Source of the DNA: a virus
DNA length: 20,023 bases
Virus record (IMG/VR): IMGVR_UViG_3300046096_000061
Span: 1-20,023 of that record
Reading direction: 5' to 3' (one strand)
Shown piece by piece: positions 6,268 through 20,023 of this stretch (positions are counted from its first letter, which is position 1; the number at the start of each line of letters is the position of its first letter). Under the pieces are notes generated by a model. The model had not been told where the DNA came from. It saw only the letters and a list, made by a program, of their open reading frames with translations, and made no database searches. Both the position numbers and the translations under genes were made by a program.

Positions 6268-6483
6268 ATGAGTAACGAAACTATGTTGTATATAGAAGGT
6301 GGTGATATAAGGGTGGGCGATAAAACCTTTCGTACCATTATTGTTGATGCCGATAATTCTGAAGATTTTGATGCTGCGAAGGCGGCAGGGTATAAAGAGT
6401 CCTCGGAAGCCTTTGCCTTTTTATTAGAAGAGAAAGAAATTGCTATTGAAGAAGTGCAATCTATTAAGAAAAAAGGTAAATAA
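6268..6483 (+). CDS. Unrecognised 71-aa protein between coat and gp4-like genes
   Basis: I do not recognise this protein. It is small, with about equal numbers of acidic and basic residues, and ends in a lysine-rich tail (IKKKGK). The first half looks like short beta strands (MLYIEGGDIRVGDKTFRTIIVDA), the second half like helices (DFDAAKAAGYKESSEAFAFLLEEKEIAIEEVQ). The frame is also open upstream to GTG 6235, but the purine-rich site GAGAGGG at 6258-6264 lies right before ATG 6268. The longer version would run through the hairpin's flank. Its stop overlaps the next start (TAATG 6481-6485), so it is translated together with the gp4-like gene. A virion accessory or assembly role is inferred only from position. 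P22 has no gene at this place. Confidence 0.7.
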   Translation: MSNETMLYIEGGDIRVGDKTFRTIIVDADNSEDFDAAKAAGYKESSEAFAFLLEEKEIAIEEVQSIKKKGK

Positions 6484-6956
6484 TGTCGTGGACAAAACGC
6501 CAGTTTGTTGAACAGGCTCTTGAGGAAATTGGGGTGGCAAGCTATGATTTTGACTTGCAGCCCGAACAGCTGCAATCTGCATTACGCACTCTTGATGCAA
6601 TGATTGCATCGTGGAATGCAAATGGGGTGAGAATTAGCTATCCATTACCGAGTAGTCCTGAAAATAGCGAGCTTGACACAGAAACCAATGTGCCAGATAC
6701 GGCGAATGAGGCTATTTATACTAATTTAGCAATACGCCTAGCTAGTAGATTTGGGAAGGTCGTGTCACAAGAATTGAAAGCCACGGCATTGCAGGCGTAC
6801 AGCTCACTGTTGGCTGGGTATATTGAAGTAGAGCCTCGCAGGTATGGCTATTTCTTGCCTGTTGGGGCGGGGAATAGTGGATATGGCTATAATAGTGCAT
6901 TTTTCCCTAATCCAGCCGACCAATTCACGGTTGGTAATGATAGTATTTTGAGGTAA
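6483..6956 (+). CDS. Head-completion / DNA stabilisation protein, P22 gp4-like
   Basis: This protein adds below the portal ring after packaging and keeps DNA in the head, forming the adaptor to which the hub protein binds. The 157-aa length matches P22 gp4 (166 aa). Recognisable features include the N-terminal QFVEQALEEIGVAS, the ALRTLDAMIASWNANGVRISY stretch (compare gp4 DDLEAMMAEWYQDGI), the AIYTNLAIRLASRFG helix, and a C-terminal Gly/Tyr/Phe-rich tail with PVGAGNSGYG (compare PTGSGNS in gp4). The start overlaps the preceding stop, and AAGG lies at 6473-6476. P22 gp4 is reported to have peptidoglycan-hydrolase activity; nothing seen here tests that. Confidence 0.88.
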   Translation: MSWTKRQFVEQALEEIGVASYDFDLQPEQLQSALRTLDAMIASWNANGVRISYPLPSSPENSELDTETNVPDTANEAIYTNLAIRLASRFGKVVSQELKATALQAYSSLLAGYIEVEPRRYGYFLPVGAGNSGYGYNSAFFPNPADQFTVGNDSILR

Positions 6957-6959
6957 ATT

Positions 6960-7415
6960 ATGAGTACAATAAACAATTGGAGTACATTAGATACACTTAT
7001 TGATGGGGACGGTTTTGCCGTCTATTCTATATCTAATGGCGATGATAGAAGATGCCCTGCTAGTGTTGTGGCAACTTACTTGGAAGGTAAAATCACTAGC
7101 GTTGATGATAAAGTCACGCAGTACGCAAGCCCCTCCGCAACAGCGTTTACAGTCACGCTGACTGATAGTTCGGTTAGCTTATGGTTGGTGTTAACACCAA
7201 CAGGGACTTTTGCTACAGGGACGATTAAAATGCCTAGTGTTGCTAATGCAACCGATAAGCAAGAAATTTTAGTTAATTGCACGCAAATTGTGACCGCATT
7301 AACACTAGATGCGAACGGCGGAACGGTTACTGGCGCACCAGCTACTTTAGCAGCTAATAGCTTCTTTAAGTTGCGCTTTGATGGCGTTGCCAAAGTTTGG
7401 TATAGAGTGGGATAA
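6960..7415 (+). CDS. Phage virion-type accessory protein (151 aa)
   Basis: The function is unknown, but the pattern is familiar from tailed phages. The N-terminal segment (LDTLIDGDGFAVYSISNGDDRRCPASVVATYL, shown in part as DGDGFAVYSISNGDDRR) resembles a short motif found at the start of many phage tail and head-fibre proteins. The remainder (about residues 50-151) is a beta-rich domain beginning YASPSATAFTVTLTDSS and ending KLRFDGVAKVWYRVG, a module that recurs in phage structural proteins. It sits 3 bases after the gp4-like gene and 1 base before the hub gene, a place where P22 has no gene. A small decoration, head-fibre or hub-associated protein is the likely role, by inference. No signal peptide or membrane segment is seen. 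Confidence 0.75.
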   Translation: MSTINNWSTLDTLIDGDGFAVYSISNGDDRRCPASVVATYLEGKITSVDDKVTQYASPSATAFTVTLTDSSVSLWLVLTPTGTFATGTIKMPSVANATDKQEILVNCTQIVTALTLDANGGTVTGAPATLAANSFFKLRFDGVAKVWYRVG

Positions 7416-7416
7416 A

Positions 7417-8820
7417 ATGCAAATTCCTATCATAAGCGGAATGTATGTTGACGGTGCTGGGGATTTTAGAGCCTCGTATCCTGTTAATTATATACCTGTC
7501 ATTGAGAAGCAGGGTATAAGCAATGGCTTTTCTCGTCCATCGGACGGTATTGTGCTGTTTGGTAGCGTTTCAACTGGCTTTGATAGGGGTGGCATAAATT
7601 GGAATGGTATCTGTTATAGAGTGATAGGAACAACGCTATATAGGGTAAATAGCGATGGCACAACAATCTCAATGGGGGCTATATCTGGAACTGGATTGGT
7701 GCGCTTTGATTATTCATTTGATAGGCTTGGAATAGCTGCTGACGGGAAGTTGTGGTATTTGACTGGCACAACCTTACAGCAGGTTACTGACACTGACTTA
7801 GGTACTGTTGTTGATATGTGCTGGGTTGATGGTTACTTTATGACCACCGATGGCGAATTTCTTATTGTAACTGAACTGAATGACCCTTTTGCAGTCAATC
7901 CATTAAAATACGGAAGTTCGGAGGTTGACCCCGACCCTGTAGAGTGTCTATTGAAGTTAAAAGGCGAGATTTACGCCCTTAATCGCTACACAATAGAAGT
8001 TTTTGAGAATGTGGGGGGGGATTTATTCCCTTTCCAGCGTATTGATGGTGGCTTGATACAGAAAGGAATTATAGGGACAAGAGCAGCTTGTATATTTAAT
8101 GATGCTATAGCTTTTGTTGGCGGTGGACGAAATGAGGGTTTGGGTGTTTATCTAGGATTAAATGGGCAAACAACTAAGATTAGCACTCGTGATATAGATA
8201 TTCTATTAACTTCTTATACTGAAGTTGAGCTATCTAGTATCCTAGTAGAAACTAGGGTTGGCACAGGGTATGAACATCTCCTTATTCATTTACCTGATAG
8301 AACTGTTGTATTTGAGGGAATTGCAAGCAAGGCGGTAGGTGAGCCTATTTGGTTTATTCTAACTAGTGCGCTGATTGGATTTGAGCAGTATAGAGCTAGA
8401 AACTTGGTCTATTGCTATAACAAATGGTTGGTTGGTGACACTAAGACCAGTAATATTGGTTGCTTGACCAATGCAATTAGCACTCACTATGGTGATGCTA
8501 TAAGGTGGGAGATTAACGCTGGTATTGTGTACAATGAAGGACGCGGCGCAATTTTTCATCAACTGGAATTAGTGGGATTGACGGGTAATCTGGTAAGTGA
8601 AGGGGATGCATATATTGCGACCAGTTATTCTTTAGATGGGCGGTCTTGGAGTATGGAAAAGCCTATAAATGCTGGGAAATACGGTGATAGAACAAAACGA
8701 TTGATTTGGTTGCAGCAAGGCAATATGCGCAACTGGCGGATACAGCGGTTTAGTGGTGATAGCAATACTCATATCTCTTTTGCGAGACTAGAGGCATTGC
8801 TAGAGCCACTTGCTATATAA
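7417..8820 (+). CDS. Tail hub / DNA stabilisation protein, P22 gp10-like
   Basis: This 467-aa protein corresponds to P22 gp10 (472 aa), the hexameric hub that binds below gp4 and to which tailspikes attach. Similar stretches run along the whole length: an N-terminal VDGAGDFRASYPVNYIPV (compare NADYIDYLPVNM), EVFENVGG..FPFQRIDGGLIQKGIIG (compare EYFSLTGA and SLMVQKGIAG), EHLLIHLPDRTVVFEG (compare ELLIIHLPRHVLVYD), and the C-terminal GDRTKRLIWLQQGNMRNWRIQRF (compare VYDKRVLWKRVGRIRRLIGF). ATG 7417 is 1 base after the preceding stop. The frame is open upstream to 7378, but that would overlap the previous gene. The coding sequence contains a run of eight G at 8013-8020 that leaves the frame intact. 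Confidence 0.9.
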   Translation: MQIPIISGMYVDGAGDFRASYPVNYIPVIEKQGISNGFSRPSDGIVLFGSVSTGFDRGGINWNGICYRVIGTTLYRVNSDGTTISMGAISGTGLVRFDYSFDRLGIAADGKLWYLTGTTLQQVTDTDLGTVVDMCWVDGYFMTTDGEFLIVTELNDPFAVNPLKYGSSEVDPDPVECLLKLKGEIYALNRYTIEVFENVGGDLFPFQRIDGGLIQKGIIGTRAACIFNDAIAFVGGGRNEGLGVYLGLNGQTTKISTRDIDILLTSYTEVELSSILVETRVGTGYEHLLIHLPDRTVVFEGIASKAVGEPIWFILTSALIGFEQYRARNLVYCYNKWLVGDTKTSNIGCLTNAISTHYGDAIRWEINAGIVYNEGRGAIFHQLELVGLTGNLVSEGDAYIATSYSLDGRSWSMEKPINAGKYGDRTKRLIWLQQGNMRNWRIQRFSGDSNTHISFARLEALLEPLAI

Positions 8821-8950: not shown

Positions 8951-9400
8951 GTGATAAGACAGGCTAATTTATCTGACTTGCCAGTTATTCTTGAGATGGG
9001 CGCAGCTTTTTTTCAAGAAGCTCATTGGAGTAAGTTTGCCACTTGGCAAGAAACAGAATGCGCCTTTATTCTTTCTAAAATAATAGAGACCCCAGAAGAC
9101 AATATACTGCTAGTTTACGATGATGGTATCGAGATACTGGGCATGATTGGTATAGTAAAACAGCCTTTGTGGTTTAATTGTGAATTTACAATTGGTCAGG
9201 AGCTATTTTGGTACACAAGACCTAAGAAGAGAAGCTCGGGCATAGGGGTGAAGCTTTTGTTAGCTGCTGAAAAGCGAGCGAAAGAGATTGGATACAATTT
9301 AATTGTGATGGCTAGTGTGGAAAAAATGCCTGACTTAAAGGCTTTGTATGAGAAGACAGGGTTTGTTTTAACTGAAAATACTTTTATGAAGAGGGTATAA
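8951..9400 (+). CDS. GNAT-family N-acetyltransferase
   Basis: This 149-aa protein is a GCN5-related acetyltransferase that would transfer an acetyl group from acetyl-CoA to an unknown amine substrate. The acetyl-CoA binding motif R-x-x-G-x-G is seen as RSSGIG (residues 94-99), followed by the helix VKLLLAAEKRAKEIG. Other family features are the N-terminal IRQANLSDLPVI and the C-terminal ALYEKTGFVLTENTFMKRV with the usual Y-x-x-x-G-F turn. The start is GTG at 8951, because the IRQANLSD segment is needed for the fold. No clear ribosome-binding site exists apart from GTGGG in the terminator's 3' arm (8937-8941), which the hairpin would hide. It lies between hub and ejection genes, where P22 has gp26 and gp14. 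It could modify virion proteins, a host protein or a surface sugar; the sequence does not say which. Confidence 0.88.
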   Translation: MIRQANLSDLPVILEMGAAFFQEAHWSKFATWQETECAFILSKIIETPEDNILLVYDDGIEILGMIGIVKQPLWFNCEFTIGQELFWYTRPKKRSSGIGVKLLLAAEKRAKEIGYNLIVMASVEKMPDLKALYEKTGFVLTENTFMKRV

Positions 9401-11157: not shown

Positions 11158-13928
11158 TGGCAATAACTAAAGTACAGATACCAAGCGGAGAAATTGTAAA
11201 AGTTGAACACCCTGACGGTGCAACTGACGAGCAAATATTGAGTTTTGCACAACAAAACTACAAAAGTCAATCCCCGCCAGTGGGCGAACAAAGAGGCGGT
11301 GGTGCTGGCGGTGCGGCGCAAGCTGGCTTACAAGGCTTTGCCAAGGGTGCAACCTTTAATTTTGCCGATGAAATACAAGCTGGAATTGGTGCTGGAATTG
11401 GCGTTGCCGCTGATATCGCTTACGGTAATAAGCCATCACTCAGTAGGTCTTATAATGAGGCTTTAACCTCCACAAGAGGACGGCAAGAACAATTAGCGCA
11501 AGGACAGCCTGTAGCAACAGTTATAGGGGAATTAGGCGGGGCAATAGGGATAGGCGTTGGTGGAACAAAATTAGCATTAAAGTCTTTGCCAGAATTAGCA
11601 GGAAAAGCAAGGGGAGTTTATGCAGCAGCATCACCACTGGCAAAAAAAGCATTACTTGCAGCCGCAGGCGCAACAACTGGTCAAGCATCGGGGGATTTAT
11701 ATGCCTTTGGAGCAGGCGAAGGCGGCGTTGCACAAAGAGAGCAGGCAAGAGAAGATGTTGGATACTTGGCTGGGGCTGCTGGGGCTGTTGCTCCTTTCGC
11801 TGCTCCTCTTATAGGAAAAGCGGCGACTAAAGTAGGGGGCGTTGCTAAGAGCGCAGTTAGCAATGTGTTCGGTAAGAAAGCTGTTGAAGTGATTGAAACG
11901 GTTGCTGGTGGCGTAACTTCTGCGCAGAAATTACCTGCTGAAATACCCACTTCTTCTCCATTACCTAGCGTTGCTGAAGACATTGCGTCTAATAGGATTT
12001 CTCTGCCTACTGGTGTTAAATCTGGTGATGTGGAGTTGATGCGGGTTGAAGAAGCGGCAAGACAAGGTTTACTCGGCATAAAAGAACAAGCAGTAATTCA
12101 GCAAATTGATAAAAACACTTTCCTAGACGCACAGAAGCTCATTAAGAAGATTGCGGGCGTGCCAGCCGATGCTATAATTACGGGCACGCAGTTGTCAGAC
12201 GATTACCTTGAGAGTGGTGTTGAGATGGTGAAAAACCGTTATAATGCCGAAAAGAGGCTGCAAAACGCTTTAATGAAACAGAGAAATGAAGCTATAGCAT
12301 CATCTAGTGTTTATGCTGATTACACAAAAGAAACGCTCGGGAATAATTTAGCTATATTAAGAAAGACCCCTGATTATCAAATAGCCTTACAACAAGCCGA
12401 TAATGCTGGAATTAAACAAGATTTTGATTTCCTAGATAAAATGCTAATGACTGAAGGGATAAAATCAGTCAAGCTGCCAGTGTTGGCGGCGTGGAGAAAG
12501 GGGCTTAATAGATACCAAGCAGGAACTCAAGCGGGTGTTTTGTCTAAGGGACTGGCTTCAACTTATGATGGCTGGCTGGATAATCTCACAAATGAAGCTA
12601 TCAAGAATGGGGATGATGATTTAGTTAACAAAATAACAACCGCAAACCAAGCTTATAGCAAGTTCAAGGGAATATATGGTGACAATAAATATAAAGGTAA
12701 AACTAGCCTTATCAAAGATATTGTAGAAAAGACAGAGCTAACGCCAGACCATCTCGCCAATATGGTTTTTGGAAAAGGGCTTTCTGGTGGCACTAAGGGC
12801 TTACAAAAGTTTAATGAGGCAATGGCTGCTGTTGGTGTTAGGAAACAAGATGTTTTCAAGCAAAGCGCAAAGGCAGGGTTATTATCTAGGGTGCTGGAAA
12901 CTAAAAACGGCACTATAGGAGAAATAAAAGGCAATCTTGATAAATTATTGATGAACAAGACATTCACTAAAGCGATAGCTACGCCTGAAGATGTGATAGT
13001 AATTAAGCAGTTGAATAAGGATTTAGGAGCGTTTATCGCCGCCAACTCCCGTAAGGATGTATATGCGCCGTCTGCACCCGCTTTATTAAGAGCATTGCAG
13101 CCTTTGCTTGGCACTATAGGTAATATTGCACCGCCGTTGCGTGGCGTAACTGCTATGTTTACGGAGAATGTTATAGATAAAGCTGCTCAATTTCCTGCTA
13201 AAAGGGCTTTTGAAAAATCATTGTCAGAATATAGTGAAGAGCTGGCTAAAGTAGCAAGAGAAAACCCTGTCTATTTTGGCAGCAGAATGGGGGCGGCAGT
13301 CGCTGGCGGCTCTATAGCTGGGCAGCCACAAGAAGAATTGCAACCCTATATGGAGCAATCCCAGAATACAATGCCACAACCATCCAAAGAAGAAACTGCA
13401 CCAGCGGCACAACCTATTTCAGCACCAGAAACAACTCCACAATTACGACAACCTTTGCAGCCACAATCTAGCGTTAGTAGAGATTTGCTTAATAAGATAG
13501 TTAAAGCCGAAAGCGCAGGCAATCCTAACGCCAAAGCAAAGACATCTAGTGCAAGTGGGTTGTTTCAATTCACTAATGGAACTTGGGCGCAAATGGTGCG
13601 TAAATACGGCAAAGAAGCGAATATATCATTCAAAGATAAAAATGATGTACGCTCACAATGGTATATGGCGGAGAAATTAACGCAAGAGAATGAAAGTTTG
13701 TTAAATCGCAAGATAGGAAGACAACCAACTGGCGGGGAGCTTTATATAGCACATTTTTTGGGTGCTGATAAGGCATCAAAGCTCATCAATAAGAAAGATG
13801 CTAATGTAGTAGCAGCCCTTGTTTTCCCTAAAGAAGCCAAGGCGAATAAGCCTATCTTCTTCCATATCAATGGCAAGCCCCGCACTGTTGCAGAAGTTTA
13901 CAATGTCTTAACTAGGAAGGTATCATAA
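11157..13928 (+). CDS. Large ejection protein with C-terminal lytic transglycosylase domain (gp16-like)
   Basis: This 923-aa protein is likely the third ejection protein, which opens peptidoglycan as DNA enters. Residues 1-37 form a small domain seen in other phage ejection proteins (VQIPSGEIVKVEHPDGATDE). Residues 40-230 are rich in Gly and Ala with hydrophobic helices (GAIGIGVGG and similar), possibly membrane-active. A long helical middle follows, then a Pro/Gln linker at about 721-771. The C-terminus (about 772-923) looks like an SLT-type transglycosylase: Glu785 in KAESAGNPNA, then SASGLFQFTNGTW and YIAHFLGADKAS (from about 863). Catalytic Glu785 is present. The protein is longer than P22 gp16 (609 aa), which lacks this obvious domain layout, so it is a multi-domain version. 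TAATG overlaps occur at both ends of the gene. Confidence 0.85.
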   Translation: MAITKVQIPSGEIVKVEHPDGATDEQILSFAQQNYKSQSPPVGEQRGGGAGGAAQAGLQGFAKGATFNFADEIQAGIGAGIGVAADIAYGNKPSLSRSYNEALTSTRGRQEQLAQGQPVATVIGELGGAIGIGVGGTKLALKSLPELAGKARGVYAAASPLAKKALLAAAGATTGQASGDLYAFGAGEGGVAQREQAREDVGYLAGAAGAVAPFAAPLIGKAATKVGGVAKSAVSNVFGKKAVEVIETVAGGVTSAQKLPAEIPTSSPLPSVAEDIASNRISLPTGVKSGDVELMRVEEAARQGLLGIKEQAVIQQIDKNTFLDAQKLIKKIAGVPADAIITGTQLSDDYLESGVEMVKNRYNAEKRLQNALMKQRNEAIASSSVYADYTKETLGNNLAILRKTPDYQIALQQADNAGIKQDFDFLDKMLMTEGIKSVKLPVLAAWRKGLNRYQAGTQAGVLSKGLASTYDGWLDNLTNEAIKNGDDDLVNKITTANQAYSKFKGIYGDNKYKGKTSLIKDIVEKTELTPDHLANMVFGKGLSGGTKGLQKFNEAMAAVGVRKQDVFKQSAKAGLLSRVLETKNGTIGEIKGNLDKLLMNKTFTKAIATPEDVIVIKQLNKDLGAFIAANSRKDVYAPSAPALLRALQPLLGTIGNIAPPLRGVTAMFTENVIDKAAQFPAKRAFEKSLSEYSEELAKVARENPVYFGSRMGAAVAGGSIAGQPQEELQPYMEQSQNTMPQPSKEETAPAAQPISAPETTPQLRQPLQPQSSVSRDLLNKIVKAESAGNPNAKAKTSSASGLFQFTNGTWAQMVRKYGKEANISFKDKNDVRSQWYMAEKLTQENESLLNRKIGRQPTGGELYIAHFLGADKASKLINKKDANVVAALVFPKEAKANKPIFFHINGKPRTVAEVYNVLTRKVS

Positions 13929-15868
13929 TGCTGCAAATACAATCATCATATCCTTATTTCACCGACAAGACGGGTTCGCCGCTTAACGCTGGCAGTGTTT
14001 ATATTGGGGTTGCGGGACAAAATGCGCAATCAAATCCTACGCAGGTATATTATGATGAAGCTGGAACATTACCAGCAGCGCAACCTCTAAAAACTACTAA
14101 CGGTTATATTTATCGCTCAGGTGTCCCAACTAGGCTCTACACGGCGTTGACTGACTACTCTATGGTGGTTAGAGATAAGAATGCGGCATTGGTATTTAAC
14201 ACCCTATCTAGCTCTAGCGTATTCAATAATCAACTATTGGCAACATCTTCGGGGGCAGCAGGAGTAGGTTATACGCAGGGAGGAATTAGTGCTGTAACTA
14301 GGACGGTTCAAGATAAACTAAGGGATGCCGTTTCAGTTAAAGATTTCGGGGCAGTAGGTGACGGTGTGACTGATGACATAAACGCTTTCGTTGCCGCATA
14401 CAACACAGGGAAAGGAGTTTTTGTCCCTGACGGCAGTTATATTGTTAATGTGGCAACACAAGACCAAGCAAACGCTATTATGGGTATGATGATTAGTTTG
14501 CATCTTTTCTGCAGTAGCTTAGTGGTTAATATTGGTGCTGGTGTGTTCAATTTCTCAACGAGAACTACCTTTGATGTCACGAACGGCTATAAATTAAAAG
14601 TTATTGGTGCAGCTCATAGCACCCTGACTTTTAGTGCGCTATTAAGTATTGTTTCTATTGGGAGCAATAATCATCAAGTTACAATCAGGCTAGTAAATGC
14701 AACCACGGTTGATATTGGGGATTTTCTTATTGTGGAGACTACTTTTGGCACAAATGCGCAAGAAGTGCTTGAGGGTGTTTGGGAGGTTATAGGGAAAGCG
14801 TCAAACGATGTGACGCTGAAAAACAAAGCTGATGTGGTGAGTTTTTCTGCTGTGCCAACATTAACCGCAGCGAGCATAAAGAAAATTAACACTGTTATGA
14901 AATACACAAACAGTCTTGGGTTTCTTGTTAGAACGCCTATGGGAGCAGATAGTGGCTTAGGGAGTGGTTTTTCAAGAATGGCAGTTGTTGGTGATGATAG
15001 TAGTAATGTTGGGGTCTTGATTGAGTATGGTTGCAGCGCATCATTCTCAAATGAATTTGCATTATGTAATTTTGGTTCACACGGCATATACCCAATATAT
15101 CACGGAGTAGTCATTCTGCAGGATAGTTTTGTGTGTGGTATTGGCGAGAACGGTGTTTACTCATTGAATGGCTCTACTATACAGGGGGTTAGAACTATAG
15201 TGAACGGAAATGGTGCGGCTGGGTTTGTGGCATCAACAGGTGCAAGAATTGCAGCAAGTCAGTCTAAGGCTTGTGGTAATAACTCAGGCTACCGCTCGCT
15301 TGGAGGTTCAGTAATTATTTGTAATAGCAGTGTTGCTAGTTATAATACAAATTATGGGCACGATGCTCGTGAAAGCGGATACCTTGATGCAACGGGGGCA
15401 ACATCAAAAGCTGATAGAAATGGGTTGTATGGCATCTCTGCTTCGGGGAATTGTTATGTTGATTTTACATCAGGAAATGCGGCGAGTAATGGCACTCTAG
15501 ATGCTATTGAGGCTGATATTGAAAGTGTGATTAAAGGCGGCACTTATGGCACAAGCTCCCTGAATACTCGCCCAATTAGAATGTTGACAGGGACGGCTGT
15601 ACACGACTTTGGTGTTGTAAATGCAAATACAACCAAGTTAGTTGCTATTACAGTAGCAGGTGCAGCGAACAATGCAAACAATACGGTAAGTGTCGGCTAC
15701 AATGGTGCGGAAGTTCTTAATACGGCTGGCTCGCCAATTCCTTGTCTTGTGGTAACTGGTAGGGTTACGGGTGTAGATACGGTCACGCTATACGCAAGTA
15801 ATGTTACAACATCTAATTCCAATGCAGTTGGTAATAGGACATATAGAGTTCAAGTAAATCAATTTTAA
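13928..15868 (+). CDS. Tailspike 1 with P22-type head-binding domain
   Basis: This 646-aa trimeric tailspike would bind, and perhaps cut, the host surface polysaccharide. Residues 1-105 are the P22-type head-binding domain that attaches the spike to the hub (YIGVAGQN, YYDEAGTLPAAQPL, NGYIYRSG, DYSMVVRDKN). The body begins with VKDFGAVGDGVTDD (about residues 137-150), the usual start of a pectate-lyase-like right-handed beta-helix. Coil-like repeats with Asn and Gly turns run to about residue 550. The last 90 residues form a beta-rich domain ending RTYRVQVNQF, shared with the next gene. Catalytic residues cannot be assigned by eye. The start overlaps the ejection gene's stop (TAATG 13926-13930). 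Confidence 0.87.
   Translation: MLQIQSSYPYFTDKTGSPLNAGSVYIGVAGQNAQSNPTQVYYDEAGTLPAAQPLKTTNGYIYRSGVPTRLYTALTDYSMVVRDKNAALVFNTLSSSSVFNNQLLATSSGAAGVGYTQGGISAVTRTVQDKLRDAVSVKDFGAVGDGVTDDINAFVAAYNTGKGVFVPDGSYIVNVATQDQANAIMGMMISLHLFCSSLVVNIGAGVFNFSTRTTFDVTNGYKLKVIGAAHSTLTFSALLSIVSIGSNNHQVTIRLVNATTVDIGDFLIVETTFGTNAQEVLEGVWEVIGKASNDVTLKNKADVVSFSAVPTLTAASIKKINTVMKYTNSLGFLVRTPMGADSGLGSGFSRMAVVGDDSSNVGVLIEYGCSASFSNEFALCNFGSHGIYPIYHGVVILQDSFVCGIGENGVYSLNGSTIQGVRTIVNGNGAAGFVASTGARIAASQSKACGNNSGYRSLGGSVIICNSSVASYNTNYGHDARESGYLDATGATSKADRNGLYGISASGNCYVDFTSGNAASNGTLDAIEADIESVIKGGTYGTSSLNTRPIRMLTGTAVHDFGVVNANTTKLVAITVAGAANNANNTVSVGYNGAEVLNTAGSPIPCLVVTGRVTGVDTVTLYASNVTTSNSNAVGNRTYRVQVNQF
13991..14019 (+). repeat. 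Copy 1 of a 29-bp direct repeat in the head-binding domains
   Basis: This 29-base stretch, coding the GSVYIGVAGQ region, matches 15949-15977 at all but one position, with 22 consecutive identical bases (13998-14019). The reading frame is the same in both genes. It marks a recent duplication, or strong conservation with gene conversion, between the two tailspikes. Confidence 0.85.
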
Positions 15869-15885
15869 CAAAAAAAGGCAATAGA

Positions 15886-18573
15886 ATGTTAGAAATAAGA
15901 ATACCAGTGTTGCATTTTAACGATAAAACAGGCGTACCGTTAAGTAACGGCAGTATTTATATTGGGGTTGCGGGACAGAACCCTATCACTAATCCACTAC
16001 AAATATATTACGATGAGGGTGGCACTCTCCCTGCAGCTCAGCCACTGAAGACAACTAATGGTTATATTTATAGAAGTGGAAGTCCAACAAATATCTATTG
16101 TAATGCCACTGATTATTCTATGCTTGTTAGAGATAAAAATGGTGTTTTGATATTAACAACGCCCAGTATTGCGTCTGTATATAATAACGCTGCACTGGCA
16201 CAACCGACTGCCGCAGGTGATATAGGCTATAGCCACGGTTCAACAGGTTCTGTGGCTAATACTGTTGCTAATAAGTTGAGAGAACTTACTTCCTTTGAGG
16301 ACTTCGGAGCGGTTGGCGATGGTGTGACGAATGATTTGGTAGCCATTAACAATGCTCTTACAGCTTCCAAGGTTATTTATTGCAAAGCTAATACTGTCTA
16401 TTTTGTTTCTGCAATGCCTAATATAAATGGACATACAATCTATGGGAATGGTTCAACCATAAAAATAGGTGATGTACAACAATCAATTACAAGTGAGACA
16501 AGTTTTGAGAATATTATAGCATTAACCATTGAGGGTGACAACACTTACACAACAACGCTCTCTGCTATTACCGCTGTTACAGGGAGTGATGCTAATTGGA
16601 GTGTTACCGCTACTCTCGCTGATGCAACGAATGTCGTTATTGGTGATACTGTGGTATTAAAAAATGTAACAGCGGGCGCACCAATACCAGTCGGTGCTTT
16701 AACTGGTCGCCCACCAAAGGGGCAGTTGAATAACTGTCTTACTAACTTAGGTGAAATTACAGTTACAGGCACATCTGCAACACTAACCCTATCTAATGCA
16801 ACCAGTCATCTGGCTAACGGGGACTTGGTTCTCTTAAGAGGGCAAGTGCGCACTGTTTCAGCTCTTACTGCTAGCTCTTTTACAATTAACGCAGCTCTTA
16901 CCGCTAATATAGCTGGTTATCAATATTGGTATAGGACAGTGCCATTAACAGGAACAGTAACAGTAGCTGGAACTACCGTTACTGGGGTTGGTACGGCTTT
17001 TTTAACTGAGATGAATGTTGGTGACTATATTATGATTTCTGGCTCAACATTCAGAGAAGTGACAGCTATAGCAACAAACTTGTCATTAACTATTGATGAA
17101 GCATTAACTGTTGGGGTGGCTTCCGCCTATGGCTCTATGGCATTTGGGGAGCTTCACCAAGGTGGTTGGGTAGTCACTGGGAAAACAGGTAACAACATTA
17201 CCTATATTAACACCTGCCACAACACTGCAGCGAAACCACCTGTTAATTTAATTACTGGCGGCGAGGTTACAATAATAAAAACAAATATTAAATATACCAG
17301 CACAACAAATGGCGTGACTGTAAAAGGCGGACAAATTGTTCTAAAAGATATAAGCATCATAGGCAATGGCACCTCTACAACCACCAGCGGGTTAAATCTT
17401 AACTCAGGAACAGCGCAATACTCGGCAAATGGGATTTTATTGGGAACAGTTTCAATTTCTAGTTTCGGGTACAATGTTCAAGCTGCTGGCAACAGTTATA
17501 TTTATGGTAGAGGCGTTTCTTTATGCAGCGGTTATACGGCTGGTGGTAGGGTAGCACAGGGTGCGCGAGCTTATTTTGATAGCGCACAATTTATAGGGAA
17601 TGGTAAGGCTGCGTCTGGCACTGGTTTGCTCTTAACTGAGGGGGCTTATGCAAGGCTTTCTGGTGCAAAATTTGTTGCAAATAATCTCTATGGTTTAAGG
17701 ATGGAGGTTGGCGCAGCAACTTGGAGTGATTTTGCTAATTATATAAAAAATGGAGCTGACGGAGTTGCTGCTATAGGAGGGGTTAATATTCATTTTGTTG
17801 GCGATAGATTTATTGGAAATATAGCTACTGGCTTAGAATTACAGAACGGCGGGTACGGGCGTGTTTCGGGCGGATTATTTATCAGAAATAATAATGGTAT
17901 AGTTGCCGCTGGTGGCAAACTTGAAGCACAGCAAATTAGCTCCATAGCTAATTTAAGTAATGGAATTGCAGCTTCATACTTAGGTTTCTCGTGCGAAGAG
18001 GGCGCATTTGCATTTAATGGTATTTATGGATTATATGCTTTGAAAACAACCTCTGTGAATATGAGTACTTGTCACCTTACGAGCAACATTGGCGCAGACC
18101 TGTATTTGGCATCTAAGGCTGTTATTTATGGCGATAGTGTTGGTTTTGGAGTGCCAGTAGCTACCAGTGTGTTTGCCATTAACGGCGGGAACGCAGCCTT
18201 TACAAATGCCATAGGCTTGCTTACGGCAAATGTAAATATCGGTTTAAATTCTTATAATCCTATTGACGGAACAGTTGTATCCGATGGTACGGCTACAACA
18301 TCTTATAAACCATTGACCGCCACAATTACGGCAAATATTGGTAGTATTGCGGCTAATACAACAGCGATACAGACAGTCACAGTGGCGGGGGCAACGGTTG
18401 ATAGTGATAATTTTGTTGTTGTTGGAACGAGCGGAAACAATCCTGCTGGGTTGATATTAACTGCCGCTGTCACAGCGGCAAACACAGTAACAATATCACT
18501 AAGCAATGTAAGCGCAGCGGCTATTGACCCCGCAAGCCAAACATACCGTGTGGTAGTATATAAATTATCTTAA
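15886..18573 (+). CDS. Tailspike 2 with P22-type head-binding domain
   Basis: This 895-aa protein is a second tailspike. Its first 105 residues are roughly two-thirds identical to tailspike 1 by hand alignment without gaps (YIGVAGQN, YYDEGGTLPAAQPLKTTNGY, YRSG, VRDKN), so both should fit the same binding site. FEDFGAVGDGVTND (about 137-150) starts the beta-helix. Unlike tailspike 1, a beta-rich insertion follows at about residues 220-420, with VTVAGTTVTGVGTAFLTE and MNVGDYIMISG, a phage adhesion-type module. The helix then resumes with Gly/Asn-rich coils to about 810. The last 85 residues (NTTAIQTVTVAGA, TYRVVVYKLS) correspond to the C-terminal domain of tailspike 1. It starts 17 bases after tailspike 1, with AAGG just upstream. 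Confidence 0.87.
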   Translation: MLEIRIPVLHFNDKTGVPLSNGSIYIGVAGQNPITNPLQIYYDEGGTLPAAQPLKTTNGYIYRSGSPTNIYCNATDYSMLVRDKNGVLILTTPSIASVYNNAALAQPTAAGDIGYSHGSTGSVANTVANKLRELTSFEDFGAVGDGVTNDLVAINNALTASKVIYCKANTVYFVSAMPNINGHTIYGNGSTIKIGDVQQSITSETSFENIIALTIEGDNTYTTTLSAITAVTGSDANWSVTATLADATNVVIGDTVVLKNVTAGAPIPVGALTGRPPKGQLNNCLTNLGEITVTGTSATLTLSNATSHLANGDLVLLRGQVRTVSALTASSFTINAALTANIAGYQYWYRTVPLTGTVTVAGTTVTGVGTAFLTEMNVGDYIMISGSTFREVTAIATNLSLTIDEALTVGVASAYGSMAFGELHQGGWVVTGKTGNNITYINTCHNTAAKPPVNLITGGEVTIIKTNIKYTSTTNGVTVKGGQIVLKDISIIGNGTSTTTSGLNLNSGTAQYSANGILLGTVSISSFGYNVQAAGNSYIYGRGVSLCSGYTAGGRVAQGARAYFDSAQFIGNGKAASGTGLLLTEGAYARLSGAKFVANNLYGLRMEVGAATWSDFANYIKNGADGVAAIGGVNIHFVGDRFIGNIATGLELQNGGYGRVSGGLFIRNNNGIVAAGGKLEAQQISSIANLSNGIAASYLGFSCEEGAFAFNGIYGLYALKTTSVNMSTCHLTSNIGADLYLASKAVIYGDSVGFGVPVATSVFAINGGNAAFTNAIGLLTANVNIGLNSYNPIDGTVVSDGTATTSYKPLTATITANIGSIAANTTAIQTVTVAGATVDSDNFVVVGTSGNNPAGLILTAAVTAANTVTISLSNVSAAAIDPASQTYRVVVYKLS
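15949..15977 (+). repeat. Copy 2 of the 29-bp direct repeat in the head-binding domains
   Basis: This is the partner of 13991-14019, with one mismatch (A here for G in copy 1 at the seventh base). The neighbouring DNA of the two genes is clearly diverged, so this is the best-preserved core of the paralogy and a possible site for homologous exchange of tailspike bodies. Confidence 0.85.
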
Positions 18574-18587: not shown

Positions 18588-18866
18588 ATGGCATTTTTAA
18601 TGAGTAAAAAGACAGTTACAACAAGCACTACAGCGCAGCTTGTTATGGATTTATCGGAGATCAATGGGGCGAACGATTTAACATTTCAGAATATAGGGAC
18701 TAGCGATGTATTTATTTTGACCGATAGCGCATCAAATGGAACTGACGCAAATTGTACCAACAAGTTATATGCTGGCGGCTCTATAAAGTATCCAGATAAT
18801 GTGGGAAGTAAGTTTTATTTAACCGCTGCCTCTGGAATACCGATAGTTAAAATAACTTGGAAATAA
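18588..18866 (+). CDS. Small 92-aa protein after the tailspikes, function unknown
   Basis: I do not recognise this protein with certainty. It looks like a single small beta domain: alternating Thr/Ser/Val strands (KKTVTTSTTAQLVMDL), then NDLTFQNIGTSDVFIL, a glycine turn (LYAGGSIKYP), and a C-terminal GIPIVKITWK strand. The pattern of a short beta sandwich with 'quantity of interest equals label' strands resembles small phage virion or fibre-associated proteins. It has no signal peptide and no membrane segment. It has the best ribosome-binding site in the window, 14 bases after the tailspike 2 stop, so high copy number is likely. A minor virion, chaperone or fibre-tip role is inference from place alone. 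The next gene starts 2 bases after its stop. Confidence 0.7.
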   Translation: MAFLMSKKTVTTSTTAQLVMDLSEINGANDLTFQNIGTSDVFILTDSASNGTDANCTNKLYAGGSIKYPDNVGSKFYLTAASGIPIVKITWK

Positions 18867-18868
18867 TA

Positions 18869-19696
18869 ATGACATATATTCAGAAATTACAAAATAAGAA
18901 TTCTCTTTATGAGAATGCAACCATTAGTGCTAGTGGGGGGCAAGTTATGTGCAACCGCCTTAGCTTCTTAGATACGAATGCTTATGCTTATGTTGATAGA
19001 TTTGCAAACTCTCCTAGCGCAGCCACTCTAAGCGCAATAAATACCTTTTTTACTACGCTCAAGGCAGATACAACCTACTCTGCATTTGATGAATTTTATC
19101 TTTTAGGTGGTCAAGATGAGCAAGCCACTAGAATTAACTTAATCAATCCCACAGTTTCATTACAGGTTGTTAGTGCGCCAGTATTTGTAGCTAATTCTGG
19201 TTGGCAAGGGGATGGAATTGATGATAGTCTAGATAGTCCAATACTATTAAGCGAAGGCGGTAAATTCACACAAGATAATGCACATTTAGGGGTGTGGAGT
19301 TTAACAAACACATTTAATGCCGCTTATTATGATATTGGCACTGGCGCAACTACTAACGCAAGGCGATTAAATTGCAGTAATACCGCCATTCAGTGCCTAG
19401 GCAACTTGAGTTCAGCAACCAATGTCACTGGCGTTGTTACTAATAGCTTAGGGCATTATGTGATAACCAGAAGTAACTCAACATCATCTACCGTTTATAA
19501 GAACGGAAGTTCAATAGGTGTGGGGGCTGACACTACTGCGGCAACCACCGATGGAGCGCTTACAATATTAAGAAGCAGAGCAACCTTCTCAGCTCGGAGA
19601 TTAATGGCAGCTCATAGAGGGCGTAATTTGACTGCTGGCGAGGTTACTACTTTGTATAATGCCCTCAATGCCTACAAAACAGCAATAGGGGCGTAA
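18869..19696 (+). CDS. Putative concanavalin/LamG-like phage adhesin (275 aa)
   Basis: This protein probably belongs to a group of phage-encoded proteins with a concanavalin/LamG-like sugar-binding domain. The N-terminal half is helical with FDEFYLLGGQDEQATRINLINP (residues about 73-94). The motif ANSGWQGDGIDDSLDSP (about 108-124) is typical of this group, followed by KFTQDNAHLGVWS. The C-terminal half is beta-rich with YVITRSNSTSSTVYKNG, ending in a helix (GEVTTLYNALNAYKTAIGA). ATG 18869 is 2 bases after the previous stop. A TTG at 18857 is also in frame but lies inside the preceding gene. Binding to a host glycan, or decoration of the virion, is likely but unproven. The stop overlaps the next start (TAATG 19694-19698). 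Confidence 0.72.
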   Translation: MTYIQKLQNKNSLYENATISASGGQVMCNRLSFLDTNAYAYVDRFANSPSAATLSAINTFFTTLKADTTYSAFDEFYLLGGQDEQATRINLINPTVSLQVVSAPVFVANSGWQGDGIDDSLDSPILLSEGGKFTQDNAHLGVWSLTNTFNAAYYDIGTGATTNARRLNCSNTAIQCLGNLSSATNVTGVVTNSLGHYVITRSNSTSSTVYKNGSSIGVGADTTAATTDGALTILRSRATFSARRLMAAHRGRNLTAGEVTTLYNALNAYKTAIGA

Positions 19697-20023
19697 TGAA
19701 AGATAAACCCCTAACAAGAGACCAGTTAGCTAAGTTCCTTCCTGACCAGCAAGCAATCAGGCAGTTTGAAAAAATTGTTAATACTACTAGCGATAGCTCG
19801 GAAGCAATAACTATTATTGAGGGCGAAGTTGCCGAATTAAAAAGTGCGCATTATATCACTGCGGTTGCGAGTGCTTTTTTAACTAATGATGTGGCTATTG
19901 CCGATTTGCTAGTTGATACAAACTCCTTAGATTTGAATTTTGATAGTGTTTCGCAAGCATTAACTGGTAATGTCTTGGTGCGTGATACTACAACTGCTAC
20001 AACGACAATTACAGCGGCAGGGG
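19696..20023 (+). CDS. Partial phage protein, N-terminal 109 residues
   Basis: This reading frame starts at the TAATG overlap and stays open to the end of the window, so only the first 109 residues are visible. The opening (KPLTRDQLAKFLPDQQAIRQFE) matches a recurrent N-terminal pattern of phage proteins encoded near tail or fibre genes. It is followed by a helix (SSEAITIIEGEVAELKS) and then a Thr-rich beta region (VLVRDTTTATTTITAAG) that may be the start of a fibre-like domain. The protein is probably a virion or receptor-binding accessory. The C-terminus, which would decide this, lies outside the window. Confidence 0.7.
   Translation, partial: MKDKPLTRDQLAKFLPDQQAIRQFEKIVNTTSDSSEAITIIEGEVAELKSAHYITAVASAFLTNDVAIADLLVDTNSLDLNFDSVSQALTGNVLVRDTTTATTTITAAG

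Follow-up and report, generated by a model that had tools for sequence, protein, structure and literature searches.

Tandem P22-type tailspike genes with homologous docks in an environmental phage may equip its virions with two specificities

Results

Two tandem spike genes lie in a P22-type morphogenesis module

The window analyzed here is a linear virus record of 20,023 bases (IMG/VR IMGVR_UViG_3300046096_000061) from a P22-like environmental phage. Pfam and phrog matches identified a P22-type morphogenesis module, in which genes for the terminase large subunit, P22 portal, scaffold, P22 coat, gp4, a 151-aa protein, and gp10 are followed by those for a GNAT acetyltransferase, gp7, a 368-aa protein at the gp20 position, and a gp16-position protein with an SLT transglycosylase domain at its end. 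Directly after the gp16-position gene come two spike genes, and then genes for a 92-aa and a 279-aa protein. The spikes thus share a module with ejection-protein genes and with their likely docking partners, a gp4-type tail accessory factor (6483..6956, plus strand; Pfam P22_Tail-4, 4e-15) and a gp10-type hub protein (7378..8820, plus strand; Pfam Phage_stabilise, 5.4e-27; phrog_578, 1.6e-88), each present as one copy in the window.

Several other genes of the module deserve mention. The 151-aa protein between gp4 and gp10 (6960-7415) is conserved in many relatives, where it mostly has 150-170 aa and is sometimes longer; it gave no convincing family match. The acetyltransferase gene (8951-9400) sits between gp10 and gp7, an interval that in P22 is occupied by gp26 and gp14. 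Pseudomonas phage PfAn1 likewise has an annotated acetyltransferase immediately before its gp7-position gene. No obvious candidate for a tail-needle gene was found within the 20-kb window. The 279-aa protein (18857-19696) matches the phrog_26223 C-terminus, and the ORF located 3' of its gene (19697-20023) is cut by the contig end; both may represent additional proteins of the tail or of receptor binding. A comparison with isolated phages gave no match at the DNA level, and we found no close IMG/VR relatives of the spike 1 body, the spike 2 body, or the gp16-position protein.

Both spike genes are intact ORFs on the plus strand. Spike 1 (13928..15868) encodes 646 aa and spike 2 (15886..18573) encodes 895 aa. 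Each gene has its own start and its own Shine-Dalgarno–like sequence, and the two are probably read from a single transcript since the gap between them is 17 nt. The proteins have the same plan, consisting of an N-terminal dock (residues 1-95; 13928..14212 in spike 1 and 15886..16170 in spike 2), a neck (residues 96-138 in spike 1 and of the same length in spike 2), a body, which in spike 1 is of the pectate-lyase type, and a C-terminal domain. The body starts in both with the motif DFGAVGDG at residue 139, and hence the dock-to-body spacing is identical. The C-terminal domain covers residues ~546-646 of spike 1 (15563..15865) and ~804-895 of spike 2 (18295..18570). According to the HMM alignment, the spike 2 body additionally carries an insertion of ~145 residues (~264-408; 16675..17109, approximate borders), which is missing from spike 1 and has no Pfam match above the cut-off.

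Both docks resemble the P22/Sf6 head-binding domain

With single sequences, the Pfam Head_binding family was matched only weakly, with an E-value of 0.0077 in spike 2 and no reported hit in spike 1. The same family was matched by 9 of the 15 docks of the wider dock family, the best at 4e-08. A profile built from the 15 sequences (A2) hit P22 structures with E-values between 1.6e-5 and 5.6e-7; these were the tail complexes and the head-binding domain 1lkt, which had the lowest value. Sf6 gp14 was matched at 9.9e-8. These matches were further supported by AlphaFold2 models, which were confident for both docks (mean pLDDT of about 87 over residues 11-90); in the full-length models, high confidence was limited to the docks and the first part of each body. 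In Foldseek comparisons, TM-scores normalised to 1lkt were 0.73 and 0.76 for the two docks. The predicted docks also matched the in situ complex 8eb7 (TM 0.69 and 0.66) and the Sf6 gp8:gp14N complex 7sg7. Thus, as judged by profiles and predicted folds, both spikes start with a domain homologous to residues 1-~100 of gp9, that is, to the P22/Sf6 head-binding domain.

These results agree with the sequence-only reading of this DNA, which had proposed two tandem spikes with P22-type head-binding domains about two-thirds identical over ~100 residues and had suggested comparing them with the P22 structure. Its placement of the dock on the gp10 hub comes near the solved arrangement; by their titles, the PDB entries are a P22 gp4-gp10-gp9N complex (8eb7) and a P22 tail hub-tailspike complex (8tvr). 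Each P22 tail carries gp9 as six trimeric spikes, together with twelve copies of gp4 and six of gp10 (PMC8402733). Our literature search found no published dock-hub contact residues with which the docks could be compared at the interface.

The docks look old and maintained

Over residues 1-272, the two spikes are 44% identical (BLASTP, E 4e-59), a similarity that chance does not explain. The docks alone are 66% identical (63 of 95 residues), with a nucleotide identity of 63%, while no other dock in our collection comes closer to either of them than 53-56%. In the dock tree, given without branch support values, they are sisters and each other's nearest relatives. Both retain the conserved columns of the dock family. 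Their synonymous sites are saturated (dS about 3.9, dN 0.31), and third positions agree at 13 of 26 fourfold sites. Since the proteins have stayed similar while synonymous sites became saturated, the docks look old and maintained, which dates the duplication as old and indicates that the dock protein was conserved. With dS saturated, dN/dS is unreliable and only indicative, and by itself does not prove that both docks are in use now. The two docks also have a 22-nt exact repeat in common and a run of identical codons longer than under shuffling (p 0.03; weak). Gene conversion between the docks was accordingly a weak candidate. The two docks may be nearly interchangeable.

Bodies and C-termini point to a whole-gene duplication

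With regard to the right-handed beta-helix body of P22-type tailspikes, Pfam Pect-lyase_RHGA_epim exceeded the cut-off in spike 1 only, End_N_terminal remained below the cut-off in spike 2, and the body models were of low confidence. A body profile made from the spike 1 body and five distant E. coli phage spikes matched spike 2 in colinear pieces, from 139 to ~263 and again from ~409, with the insertion in between. When the first 45 body columns, which contain the common motif, were removed, spike 2 still scored 43.6 bits. The 94 other dock-spike bodies reached at most 3.0 bits with the motif-less profile, and 0 of 100 shuffles were reported; because the composition-bias correction for spike 2 was large (66.6 bits), these controls carry greater weight than the E-value. 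Between the two spikes, the last ~100 residues also matched (BLASTP, 2e-08; reciprocal phmmer, 6e-07), while no other dock-spike scored better than 0.15 in the C-terminal domain search. Two relatives (L025 and L026) have a related stretch at the C-terminus of spikes that themselves bear no dock.

Thus, on sequence grounds, the bodies are distant homologues that stay colinear for most of their length. Because bodies and C-termini are homologous too, which the sequence-only reading had not noted, the pair is best described as a whole-gene tandem duplication. The earlier statement that the bodies differ in length and sequence is accurate for length, given the insertion, and for sequence at first sight, but the profile and C-terminal matches mark them as remote homologues. 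The data fit a duplication within this lineage and an acquisition from a closely related, unsampled one equally well.

Two dock-bearing spikes are rare among sampled relatives

We gathered docks from IMG/VR, isolated phages, and bacterial genomes. One dock was carried by 193 of 195 loci, the remaining two being a single contig (L147 = L174). Once near-identical records had been removed, a single dock was present in 167 of the 168 distinct dock-bearing records, with L147 as the exception, and likewise in 49 of 50 whole records and 7 of 7 contigs of bacterial genome assemblies, which include probable prophages of Massilia and Pseudorhodoferax; given the many incomplete loci and a sampling based on the dock itself, the one-dock rate is approximate. 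One spike gene per phage is the usual, though not strictly defining, P22-type trait, and it is absent here, as the window has two. Two dock-bearing spikes are thus rare, being all but missing from the ~170 relatives sampled. The exceptional contig (IMG/VR 3300037493_000553) resembles the window in having two dock-bearing proteins in tandem; however, its docks come from two clades and its first protein has only about 229 aa. Since the docks belong to different clades, this contig is a mosaic rather than a case of spike duplication.

Other architectures were encountered in the same sample. In about 76 related contigs (L174-L253), a P22-type dock sits on a conserved protein of ~155-159 aa with a small C-terminal domain, which suggests that the dock is used as an adaptor. 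L025 has a dock protein of 298 aa and, between gp4 and gp10, three tandem pectate-lyase–type spikes with a different N-terminus of ~50 residues (L025:333-5535). Short dock proteins of both sizes would then act as adaptors. A 98-aa protein between gp10 and gp7 in two further contigs (L015:3764-4057 and L016:5784-6077) aligns with a portion of the dock profile (E 3e-5). E. coli phage VEcB, with its tandem fibre genes, was considered as a precedent and rejected, as vecB_139 and vecB_140 are non-homologous.

Discussion

A shared dock would give mixed virions

With P22-type head-binding domains on both N-termini, a shared dock is the simplest reading. We consider it fairly probable that the pair is a tandem duplicate of one P22-type spike, whose products, both homotrimers, fill the same six gp4/gp10 sites and yield mixed virions with two polysaccharide specificities. 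A single ancestral tailspike gene, located in its usual place directly after the gp16-position gene, would have been duplicated in tandem, with both copies retaining the dock and neck while the bodies diverged and spike 2 came to differ by its insertion. Each spike would form a homotrimer, and both trimers would bind the same six sites at random, in proportion to supply, so that virions would bear a mixture of the two spikes. We infer both the occupancy and the receptor specificity, and the two bodies could recognise related glycans rather than different receptors. Random filling of six equivalent sites is the simplest mechanism given the equal dock and neck lengths and the single gp4 and gp10 genes. 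More tentatively, and with some doubt on our part, the paralogous spikes may compete randomly for six identical P22 sites in such a way that the virion ratio of the two specificities varies within a clone, set by supply, with neither adaptor nor switch.

The two spikes may be unequally supplied. The predicted anti–Shine-Dalgarno duplex is stronger for spike 1 (−7.7 kcal/mol) than for spike 2 (−3.2 kcal/mol); thus, spike 1 may be in excess, and the occupancy of spike 2 could be low. This weaker ribosome-binding site would also fit a phage in which one spike dominates the virions and the other is scarce or mainly released as a free depolymerase, the duplicate serving as a recombination reservoir. 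The 22-nt dock repeat could aid such recombination, although the accompanying codon run is a weak indication. We regard this alternative as unlikely, since docks that remain 66% identical with saturated synonymous sites look as if both dock, and a free enzyme needs none.

Even less probable is the alternative that the docks bind different places, with one specialised, for example, on a neighboring tail ring. Paralogous docks can diverge, 34% of the dock residues differ here, and docks of different clades coexist in L147. Against this, both docks keep the family's conserved columns and an equal neck length, and the window, with one gp4 and one gp10 gene, shows no sign of a second hub.

The sequence-only reading had also proposed that one spike is a branched partner, and such a complex, with one spike fixed to the tail and the other mounted on it as in G7C, CBA120, or KP32, is a described podovirus route to two spikes (PMC6872550). 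Relatives such as L025 indeed pair a short dock protein with separate spikes that have another N-terminus. Here, however, each spike has a complete dock and neither starts with a mere short conserved peptide. A search of both spikes for a T4 gp10-like D2/D3-type domain between anchor and body gave no match, and the position of the body motif at 139 leaves no room for such a module. We thus consider branching or an adaptor very improbable, and the window's full docks on both spikes do not fit a system of the SP6/K1-5 type, with a separate adaptor and short-peptide spikes. The proposal of a switchable phage found no support either: with respect to an inversion or DGR switch, the 20-kb window yielded neither an invertase nor a reverse transcriptase, and no inverted repeats in flanking position.

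Last, that an assembler joined two population variants of one spike gene is very unlikely, because even though the pair is known from a single metagenomic contig and a search of IMG/VR with the exact junction sequence (possibly leaving out the window's own record) found no second, independent contig spanning it, the dock DNA is only 63% identical and the rest less so, alleles with no long shared stretch are not readily joined, each copy has its own start and Shine-Dalgarno–like sequence, and the junction is clean.

Comparison with known two-spike phages

Podoviruses with two spikes are not uncommon (BASEL paper, PMC11990801), and those reviewed are built by adaptor or anchor-branch systems (PMC6872550). 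In the literature searched, with most subscription papers outside it, we found no description of two paralogous same-dock P22-type spikes; nor were tandem, duplicated, or paralogous tailspike genes named in those phrases. In most of the described two-spike podoviruses, an adaptor or a branched complex fixes the spike ratio. If the shared dock is true, the ratio would instead be a matter of expression, giving phenotypic virion mixtures from one genotype, and a single-spike P22-type phage would have a simple route to a second host glycan. Because relatives so seldom have such a pair, it provides a natural test of the cost, if any, of bispecificity through a shared dock.

G7C (gp66/gp63.1), CBA120 (TSP1-4), and the KP32-type branched spikes would be similar to the present case in having several polysaccharide-specific spikes per virion, but the window spikes have neither a T4 gp10-like branching domain nor a short-peptide second spike. 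SP6 and K1-5 (gp37 adaptor) are likewise podoviruses that have two spikes, believed to target alternative surface glycans; their spikes attach to the adaptor via short peptides, while here each spike has a tail-docking domain. With P22 gp9 and Sf6 gp14, the likeness lies in dock fold and profile, P22-type gp4/gp10 tail proteins, and a probable pectate-lyase–like body. In contrast to P22 and Sf6, which have one spike, the phage described here has two tandem dock-bearing paralogues.
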